In this document: one piece after another, positions 18,238 through 20,166 of the stretch
Layout: each line of letters starts with the position of its first letter
Position numbering within the stretch: position 1 is the first letter of the stretch
Origin: Tepidamorphaceae bacterium
GTDB taxonomy: Bacteria; Pseudomonadota; Alphaproteobacteria; Rhizobiales; JAKSCL01
Length of the DNA stretch: 64,000 nt
Assembly: GCA_028289445.1 (NCBI GenBank)
Contig: JANQPO010000020.1
Location: 1 to 64,000 of the forward strand
Direction: 5' to 3'
Notes under the pieces: model-generated
Database searches by the model: none
Told to the model about the DNA's origin: nothing
The model's input: the letters and a program-made list of their open reading frames with translations, nothing else
Program-made: the position numbers and the translations under genes

Positions 18238-18651
18238 CTAAAGTAAATCGATCAAATGCGGGATCAGCGGCTCGTCGGCCGCCGGCATCGGATAGTCGCG
18301 CAGGCGAACCGGGCGAACCCAGGCAGTCTCCTGGTTTTCCTGCGGCACAACCCGCCCTTCCCATCGACGACAAATGTAAAGCGGCATGAGGAGGTGAAAG
18401 TCGTCGTAGGCGTGACTGGCAAAGGTTAAAGGCGCTAAGCAGGCCTGTGTCACGTCGATGGCCAGTTCTTCCTTCAACTCACGGATGACTGCGGCTTCCG
18501 GCGTCTCGCCGGGATCGACCTTGCCGCCGGGAAACTCCCACAAGCCAGCCATCGCCTTGCCCTGAGGGCGACGCGTGATGAGAACGCGGCCATCGACATC
18601 AACCAGCGCACAGGCTGCCACCAGCACGATTGAACCCTGCGGCTTTGTCAT
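18238..18651 (-). CDS. mutT: 8-oxo-dGTP diphosphatase MutT
   Basis: Nudix hydrolase of 137 aa that removes oxidised 8-oxo-dGTP from the nucleotide pool and so prevents A:T to C:G mutation. The Nudix box is intact: GGKVDPGETPEAAVIRELKEEL near residues 43-65. The ATG at 18651 now lies only five bases from the end of a MITE, and no ribosome site is visible (upstream reads CCTCTATCC). In the reconstructed empty site the start overlaps the argJ stop as ATGA, so the insertion probably removed translational coupling. Expression may be reduced; that is inference. Confidence 0.94.
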   Translation of the reverse strand: MTKPQGSIVLVAACALVDVDGRVLITRRPQGKAMAGLWEFPGGKVDPGETPEAAVIRELKEELAIDVTQACLAPLTFASHAYDDFHLLMPLYICRRWEGRVVPQENQETAWVRPVRLRDYPMPAADEPLIPHLIDLL

Positions 18652-18654
18652 GGA

Positions 18655-18924
18655 TAGAGGCTGTTAGGGACTTTGGATGTGGTTGCGCCGAAGCGAAAAT
18701 CCGTCAGTTCCAGGAGCGAGGAGGACGGACATGCAGCGCATGTTCTACGACGAGCGACGCCGAAATGGCGGATTTGCGGTCGGCCCCTTCGGGGTTGGGC
18801 AAAAAACGCCCCTGAATGCGTCGAAAATGCTCGACGGTGGCCCACACCGCCTTGTGCTTTTCTCCTGTTCAGGAACGATTTTTGCTCCAACGCAACGTCC
18901 ATCCAAAGTCCCTAACAGCCTCTA
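18655..18924. mobile_element. MITE-like element, 266 bp, with TA target duplication
   Basis: Perfect 23-bp terminal inverted repeats lie at 18657-18679 and 18900-18922 (left end begins GAGGCTGTTAGGGACTTTGG). Both are flanked by TA (18655-18656 and 18923-18924), the duplication expected for IS630- or IS427-type transposition. Similarity between the two ends continues imperfectly for another 40 or so bases inward. There is no transposase gene, so it would move only with help in trans. It lies exactly between argJ and mutT; the argJ stop TAG is made of the TA duplication plus the first base of the element. Confidence 0.88.
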
Positions 18925-20166
18925 GCTACGATAATCTGCGTTGATCGAGATATAGCCGTGGGTGAGATCGCAGGTCCACGCGGTGAAGCGGCCGGTCCCG
19001 AGCCCCAGATCGATCCGGATATCGATCGCGTCCCGTTTCATCATCGCAGACGCGAGCGCTTCATCATAACTTGGATGACGCTCACCGTCGGCGGCGACCT
19101 GAACGTCTCCGAACCAGATCGCCAGTCGATCGCGATCGGCCGGCTCTCCGGCCTTTCCAACAGCCATCACGACGCGACCCCAATTCGCGTCCTCGCCCGC
19201 AATCGCGGTCTTGACGAGTGGCGAATTGGCGACCGCCATGGCAATCCGTCGCGCAGAGCGCTTCGTGATGGCGCCGGTGACGGTGACGGTGACGAACTTG
19301 GACGCACCCTCACCGTCGCGAACGATCTGCTGGGCGAGATCGCGCATGATGTCCTTCAACGCCCGCCGGATGCCGGCCAGGCGCCGGTCGCTCGGCAATG
19401 TGATGCCTGGCGCGTCGCGCGCCTCTGCCGCGCCGGTCGCGAACAGCAACACCGTATCGCTTGTCGACGTGTCGCCATCGACCGTGATGGCGTTGAAAGC
19501 CTGGTCGTTGGCCGTGGTCAAGAGCCGCTTCAGGACGGCGGGCGCCAGAGGTGCATCGGTGACGAAAAACGCCAGCATCGTCGCCATGTCGGGCGCGATC
19601 ATCCCCGATCCCTTGGCAATACCATTGATGGTCACAGGCACGCCGCCAAGGCTCGCGGACCGTGTGGCGTATTTCGGGAAAGTATCCGTGGTCATGATGG
19701 CGCTAGCCGCCTCGGGCCAGCAGTCGGGCTTAGCGCTTGCGGCAGTCTTCTTGAGGATGTCGGAGAAAGCGCCGGCATCGAGCGGCTCGCCGATGACGCC
19801 CGTAGACGCGAGCAAGATCTCTTCCGGCTGACAGCCAAGCACGTCCGCCGCCGCAGCAGCCGTTTGCTCCGTCGCCTGCCTGCCCCGGACGCCCGTAAAG
19901 GCGTTGGCGTTGCCGGAATTGACCACGAGGCCCCGCGCCGAACCGCCGGGCAATGCGGTGCGACACCAGTCGACGGGTGCGGAGGCCGTGTGCGACCGAG
20001 TCAACACGCCGGCAACTGCGGCCGGTCGATCGAAGCGCATGACCATGAGGTCGGTGCGATCTTTGTACTTAATGCCGGCGGCGGCGGTGCCGATCCGCAC
20101 CCCATCGATCGATGGCATGTCCGGAAACGACTTCGGCGCGAGCGGAGAGAGCGGCGGCGCGGCCAT
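18922..20166 (-). CDS. argJ: Bifunctional glutamate N-acetyltransferase/amino-acid acetyltransferase ArgJ
   Basis: Transfers acetyl from N-acetylornithine to glutamate in the cyclic arginine pathway, and may also use acetyl-CoA. The 414-aa precursor carries the self-cleavage site in [19 protein letters not shown], where the threonine of MATML becomes the nucleophile of the beta chain. The C terminus INADYRS is normal for the family. Its TAG stop is completed by the inserted MITE. Without the insertion the frame would run two codons further (Tyr-Pro) and stop in an ATGA overlap with mutT. It lies 19 bases downstream of the parvulin gene. Confidence 0.97.

Follow-up and report, generated by a model that had tools for sequence, protein, structure and literature searches.

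Non-autonomous transposons of the MITE kind are usually regarded as remnants of insertion sequences that are defined by their ends, and a known autonomous parent is usual for them rather than defining. Among possible parents, the IS427-like elements, a subgroup of the IS5 family, use TA or CTAG as their target. According to the available portions of three published accounts (PMC10969869, PMC2229807, PMC6382973), the bacterial MITEs known as Correia/NEMIS, ERIC, RUP, Chunjie, QMITE and MITEAba12 are, like the element considered here, shorter than 500 bp, bounded by inverted ends, mostly intergenic and strongly folded, and several of them have TA at their termini, as this element has. Mosaic non-autonomous transposons are generated by the Tn3-derived miniature elements called TIMEs, as the title of the respective report states (PMC4133298).

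We analysed a 64,000-nucleotide stretch of DNA of a Tepidamorphaceae bacterium (hereafter, the window), in which a 266-bp element separates argJ from mutT. In our opinion, with a probability of roughly 0.8, it is a MITE that inserted into the native stop codon of argJ and belongs to a family of twin-hairpin elements with exchangeable ends. Its main interest lies in this structured family with variable ends, beyond the insertion at the argJ stop itself.

The Element between argJ and mutT

The 266-bp element (Table 1) is a real, non-autonomous MITE. The coordinates given to it in the initial annotation, together with the perfect 23-bp inverted ends and the flanking TA, were right: the inverted repeat matches at 23/23 bp, or over 25 bp when the TA on each side is included. 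The identity as a MITE that had been proposed there agrees with the short length, the inverted ends, the TA flanks and the copies of the core found elsewhere, the TA duplication, of only 2 bp, being weak as sole evidence. The ends read GAGGCTGTTAGGGACTTTGGATG and are referred to below as end type T3. The longest listed open reading frame lying almost wholly within the element encodes 84 aa, and the element apparently carries no transposase gene. The folding energy of the whole element is -138.4 kcal/mol (z -9.9 against 200 shuffles). We keep it filed as a MITE without a parent sharing its ends, a known parent being treated as usual and not as defining.

Table 1. Features at the argJ-mutT junction of the window
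Feature	Coordinates	Strand	Basis
MITE, 266 bp	18657..18922	+	perfect inverted ends, TA flanks, core common to other elements
Left terminal inverted repeat, 23 bp	18657..18679	+	repeat comparison
Right terminal inverted repeat, 23 bp	18900..18922	-	repeat comparison
TA, target duplication, mutT side	18655..18656	.	read from sequence
TA, target duplication, argJ side (first two bases of argJ TAG)	18923..18924	.	
Hairpin 1 with conserved purine-rich head	18690..18782	+	covariation; R1 match by construction (one of its 17 sequences)
Hairpin 2, inverted homologue of hairpin 1	18796..18888	-	model R1, 31.8 bits, rough E 2.6e-5
argJ	18922..20166	-	PF01960, E 2e-143; stop TAG = 18924-18922
mutT-like Nudix hydrolase gene	18238..18651	-	NUDIX_4, PF14815, E 4.6e-27

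Probable Insertion at the Stop Codon of argJ

The element supplies the last base of the argJ stop codon, as had been claimed before and is borne out here: the TAG consists of TA and the first base (G) of the element. ArgJ was found in 59 of 61 genomes, and the loci were fetched from 30 of these 59, i.e., from the genome of the window and from 29 of the 58 relatives with a match. In all 29 relatives fetched the protein ends exactly with ...YRS*, the stop codon being TGA, TAA or TAG (in G001, the only one of them that belongs to the same family, the sequence is AGC TAA), and ArgJ of the window ends at the same residue. Since the end of the protein is thus the same in the relatives as in the window, the native stop codon of argJ was most likely the site of insertion, TAG being regenerated in the process, as far as the comparison of these loci allows us to judge.

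The flank on the mutT side reads TAT, and the target as read is CTAT. Among the 14 elements compared, seven, that of the window included, have TA on both sides, and seven lack it on at least one side. The other six of the former are located in YTAR (CTAG in three cases); CTAT is found only at the element of the window, in keeping with one base having changed afterwards. A single G to T substitution beside the mutT-side TA would convert the junction that arose from a CTAG target, AGC-TAG-CC-ATG, into the present sequence. It was supposed in the initial annotation that the ancestral ArgJ ended with Arg-Ser-Tyr-Pro and that its TGA overlapped the ATG of mutT; the target would then have been a TAT inside this longer ArgJ, and the element would have made a new, earlier stop. 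The arithmetic behind this is correct, as the flanks joined by one TA do give ...INADYRSYP* with ATGA, exactly the ending supposed, and the extra substitution becomes unnecessary. Such an ancestor is nevertheless disfavoured and, in our view, quite improbable, because with YRS* in 29/29 relatives the insertion must have restored a conserved end by chance, and because the six other elements flanked by TA occupy YTAR targets, not CTAT. The searches of the relatives (61 genomes) and of the order (397 genomes) brought up no same-genus genome, and no true empty site was found among them.

Insertion into the native stop would have proceeded as follows. The non-autonomous transposon enters the TA of the argJ stop codon, and the duplicated TA together with the leading G of the element would again give TAG at the junction and leave ArgJ unchanged; mutT would be left 270 nt behind the argJ stop without a ribosome site, and the single base change on the mutT side would have followed later.

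Possible Consequences for mutT

The argJ-mutT junction appears to be old in many lineages. In line with the adjacency taken as ancestral in the initial annotation, mutT is located downstream of argJ on the same strand in 28 of the 29 relatives fetched, and the projected gap between the two genes is <=60 nt in 14 of these 28, 61-200 nt in five and >200 nt in nine. In the window, mutT begins 270 nt after the argJ stop, and the anti-Shine-Dalgarno pairing at its start is as weak as -0.4 kcal/mol, versus -3.3, -5.7, -8.4 and -8.7 kcal/mol in four relatives (with starts chosen by hand), so that the earlier remark on the lack of a visible ribosome site holds. No sigma-70-like promoter was detected in 18550-19050, nor one within the element; terminator-like sites were absent from the argJ-mutT strand, and two were found on the other strand.

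Reduced translation of mutT is plausible, while a mutator effect by way of mutT, likewise raised before, is speculation. We infer that the argJ-mutT transcript would fold at the element and that translational coupling would be lost. Processing of the argJ-element-mutT transcript by RNase III is a reasonable guess, because the ends of Correia elements are cut by this enzyme according to the accessible text of a 2024 review of prokaryotic MITEs (PMC10969869).

Related Elements and the Variability of Their Ends

A lack of further copies would have counted against the initial annotation, and on this point the outcome is mixed: the core recurs in the same genome with other ends, but no other site with the 23-bp ends of the window was found there at up to 3 mismatches. 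The closer relative (C3:248885-249099) is 81% identical to positions 27-240 of the window element, and the more distant one (C8:139842-140110) is 269 bp long, with 61% and 49% identity per core half. The end type of the former is GGGCCTGTTGCG... (T2, imperfect) and that of the latter AGGCTGTATC... (T4, without TA flanks), so each of the three full elements of this genome has different ends. A fourth end type, T1 (GGTCGTGGTGAGGATTGAG), is present here on a truncated piece at C21:105129, where it coincides exactly with the stop of a DUF6691 gene (L096:1501). Behind this gene the next one, metallo-beta-lactamase-like by eye, follows at once and has its own ribosome site.

Matches to the core were found, own genome included, in 5 of 61 genomes of the relatives, in 16 of 397 genomes of the order, 6 of these 16 being short matches (E about 1e-4 to 1e-3) not all of which need be real, and in 9 of 385 genomes of a draw from the class, the Alphaproteobacteria. 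The order and class searches scored two candidates per genome, and the copy numbers are therefore lower bounds. Six elements stand closest to that of the window: the one at C3, two each in G001 and G041, and one in G080; one of them has a 106-bp insertion. Their core halves are 70-86% identical to those of the window element (76-93 of 103-109 positions), whereas their ends match those of the window at 5-10 of 22-23 positions only, and the blastn matches to the core stop at the inner edge of the ends. The more distant two-hairpin elements (C8, one on C19 of G041 and one of G160) show 43-70% identity per core half. The length is 264-269 bp in 9 of 11 two-hairpin elements, and the inverted ends are recognisable across the family over about 17-26 bp, being imperfect in several copies.

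Thus the ends differ between lineages and even between copies in one genome, and we infer that one and the same body may have been equipped with different transposase-recognition ends, swapping of ends being the process. It might be argued instead that ends were never exchanged and that an old family has ends evolving fast with its transposases, by drift and co-evolution. Several end types do begin alike, with a loose GRG.CTGT, and ends of the same type differ from one another by a few bases. We consider this rather doubtful, since the divergence of ends beside a conserved core in the six closest elements, with blastn breaking exactly at the ends, and the three end types on full elements in one genome are hard to achieve by point mutation alone.

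The end type of the window was searched for separately. With 3 mismatches allowed, the 397 genomes of the order gave 10 matches to the window ends: two belong to the window itself and two to L121, whereas four (L120, L122, L123, L126) are solitary, with no partner in the DNA fetched; L117 directly adjoins an IS5-like element, and L118 falls within an apparent coding sequence. L121, 264 bp long and located in the genome G197, was detected solely through its ends TAGAGGCTGTTATGGACCATGGA, which have 3 mismatches in 23 versus the window. An exact 20-mer of the window end had two hits in genome_contigs, neither of them an element: a single end that follows a gene of Acidobacteriaceae bacterium KBS 83 (L048:5138-5157), where no partner end was seen, and a stretch inside an apparent gene of an archaeon. 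The plasmid collection, searched with the window element, L121, L011, L161 and L164, gave no match for any of them.

In the class draw, five of the eight other genomes show the same hairpin head with other ends (L158, L159, L160, L161, L164); the ends match perfectly over 12 bp in L160, 23 bp in L161 and 19 bp in L164, and those of L158 and L159, read by eye, are imperfect. No recognisable element was seen in L162 and L163. The remaining element, L165:1445-1711 of G688, follows the same plan, with 267 bp, 26-bp perfect ends and two hairpins that are nearly perfect by eye.

Several deviating forms were observed in passing. In three genomes there are half elements with one hairpin between two ends (L028, L034, L045). 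Nested insertions were recognised by eye in the second half of G001 elements: a 106-bp piece in L015:1478-1851 and a different piece of ~70 bp in several copies (L018, L021, L023, L025, L027); these pieces may represent other small repeats. At L164:1447 the end of the element, by eye, is read through, so that the gene upstream takes its final codons from it and not a TAG.

The Twin-Hairpin Body

Between its inverted ends the element has a body made up of a pair of hairpins of about 93 nt, homologous to each other and in inverted orientation. The consensus of alignment A1 has two long hairpins in which 46 of 72 pairs show two-sided changes with pairing kept, versus a mean of 22.2 (sd 2.6) in shuffles and 8-14 in slid controls, the structure having been derived from the same nine sequences on which it was scored. 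Outside the end helix such changes occur in 39 of 63 pairs. A1 comprises nine of the 14 compared elements; the one with the 106-bp insertion, the three half elements and L121 were omitted. In A2, an alignment of 17 first hairpins out of 27 (one truncated hairpin and nine further copies from genomes already represented were omitted), the head is almost invariant, while the letters of the stem vary, with two-sided changes in 15 of 24 pairs.

The homology of the two hairpins was addressed with R1, a covariance model of hairpin 1 built without any second hairpin. Applied to 76 sources, it yielded 25 hits with E no higher than 1, which include duplicate places and sequences that had served to build it. 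Among the others, hairpin 2 of the window element is recognised on the opposite strand (Table 1), as are both halves of L121 and of L038, and none of the 29 argJ control loci is matched. In a second run over 16 full elements, R1 recognised hairpin 1 in 15 (all except L165; by construction in 12 cases) and its inverted counterpart, the second hairpin, in six: L001 (the window), L002, L012, L033, L160 and L121. R1 missed the second hairpin in the other ten of the 16, and both hairpins in L165. As R1 finds inverted second hairpins, both halves of L121 among them, the element is, in terms of this model, an inverted pair of homologous hairpins, and the end type of the window is found together with such a body in another lineage too, namely in L121. 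When the window core was aligned locally with L121, L120 and L126, no significant similarity emerged on the same strand; the other strand of L121 scored 33 (1 of 400 shuffles as high), which was later accounted for by R1.

The hairpins are kept by compensatory change, which could also stem from palindrome-templated DNA repair; since both strands of the element fold equally well, RNA, single-stranded DNA and repair between palindrome arms are not distinguished. The conserved head of the hairpin suggests a protein or RNA partner. A small conserved reading frame, for which the head of hairpin 1 would serve as a ribosome site followed by ATG, was considered and rejected, as the copies differ by single bases in the length of the spacer behind the ATG, although the surrounding letters are preserved (judged by eye). 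Rfam gave no match up to E 1 for 18500-19100; across 11 sources a single microRNA hit, below the gathering threshold, was obtained, and it lies outside the element.

As for the function of the hairpins, the strong conservation of structure and the nearly invariant head, observed also outside the order, could mean that the twin hairpin is primarily useful to the host, for instance as protection of the mRNA 3' end, as an RNase III site or as a two-way terminator, and is merely set in a mobile frame. It is symmetric, could act alike in either orientation, and is often found directly behind stop codons. We think this unlikely: there is no terminator-like site on the argJ-mutT strand and no Rfam family, the distribution is patchy (16/397 genomes of the order and 9/385 of the class draw, own included), and the data are accounted for just as well if the hairpins play a selfish role.

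The chances appear to us evenly balanced for a broader proposal, that of a class-wide mobile family whose heritable unit is the twin hairpin with its near-invariant head, the ends being interchangeable, re-equipped for successive transposases and mostly provided with a leading G that regenerates TAG.

Stop-Codon Junctions in Other Genomes

Of the 18 T1 ends in G001, 8 complete the TAG with which a long frame upstream terminates. Six of these frames are supported by Pfam matches above the cut-off (TetR, CobD/CbiB, arginyl-tRNA-protein transferase, succinate dehydrogenase flavoprotein, LuxR-type and YkuD); of the remaining two, L023 has only below-cut-off HAD matches and L011 no Pfam match. In all genomes together, stop-codon junctions were flagged in 9 of 23 rows for T1, 4 of 21 for T2 and 4 of 12 for T3. 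The flagged T2 rows adjoin RF-1, EF-P, MaoC-like and CobQ-like genes. The T3 flags kept are the window and L126 (an epimerase gene); L120 was dropped from the count, and so was L121, whose ORF is without a Pfam match. A half element in G203 (L045:1471) supplies the TAG stop of the gene for RF-1, the release factor that reads TAG.

Strong targeting of stop codons was considered as well and is not retained, since preference for CTAG combined with selection against gene disruption suffices for most of the observations: 185 kb of G001 contain 34 CTAG sites that lie outside gene bodies, and 15 of them coincide with stop codons. The excess over intergenic CTAG is accordingly weak (per-end expectation 0.22, P (>=8 of 18) = 0.029), and the same 8 of 18 ends compared with any TA outside gene bodies give P 2.6e-5, both values depending on crude gene calling and on the two ends of one element, which are non-independent. 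A leading G and a duplicated TA are a simple rule by which the protein encoded upstream is left unharmed when an element enters its stop codon.

The Candidate Transposase

No autonomous element with the ends of the window was found among the 397 genomes of the order with 3 mismatches allowed, and PF01609, PF13340 and PF13358 had 0 matches in the genome of the window. By these families, no IS5-type transposase was found in this genome; it may have been lost earlier. In G080 there is an 854-bp element with a PF13340 transposase, the ends GGTCGTGTGGACAAAC and a CTAG site; the ends of the T1 MITEs start with GGTCGTGGTGAGG, and their sites are likewise CTAG. As this 854-bp element loosely resembles the T1 ends and shares their target, an enzyme of the IS5 (IS427-like) kind is favoured, and we suggest that a DDE transposase of this kind, with CTAG/YTAR as its target, would mobilise the MITEs in trans. 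As to the IS630 type, its TA is present at the target, and PF13358 gave 14 matches in four of the eight other genomes searched; no inverted ends were recovered from the 6 of these 14 loci examined.

The persistence of the body together with the change of ends implies a route to switch transposases, and this would explain how the family persists without a resident parent.

Comparison with Known Elements

The likeness to the IS427-like members of the IS5 family consists in the end motif and the target, no insertion sequence with the ends of the window having been found. The CIR repeats of Caulobacter are intergenic and have TA at their termini, like the element of the window; as far as the available part of the source goes, they are entered there with a footnoted '-' for inverted ends and with a GANTC motif (PMC2229807), whereas the window element is without GANTC. 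To the Tn3-derived TIMEs, judged by title only (PMC4133298), the family is alike in being mosaic and non-autonomous.

In the literature surveyed, mostly titles and beginnings of abstracts, no MITE with a fixed core and variable ends and no regeneration of a stop codon was found, and the words 'stop codon', 'chimeric' and 'Rhizob' do not occur in the available text of the 2024 review (PMC10969869). Nor is a restored native stop codon described for the bacterial MITEs mentioned at the outset in the accessible parts of their sources (PMC10969869, PMC2229807, PMC6382973). MITEAba12, according to the available part of its description, makes a premature stop (PMC6382973), whereas the element of the window would restore a native one. 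In QMITE1 and Chunjie, as portrayed in the parts of the sources at hand, the ends are the conserved part; in the family of the window element, by contrast, the ends vary and it is the hairpin body that is conserved.
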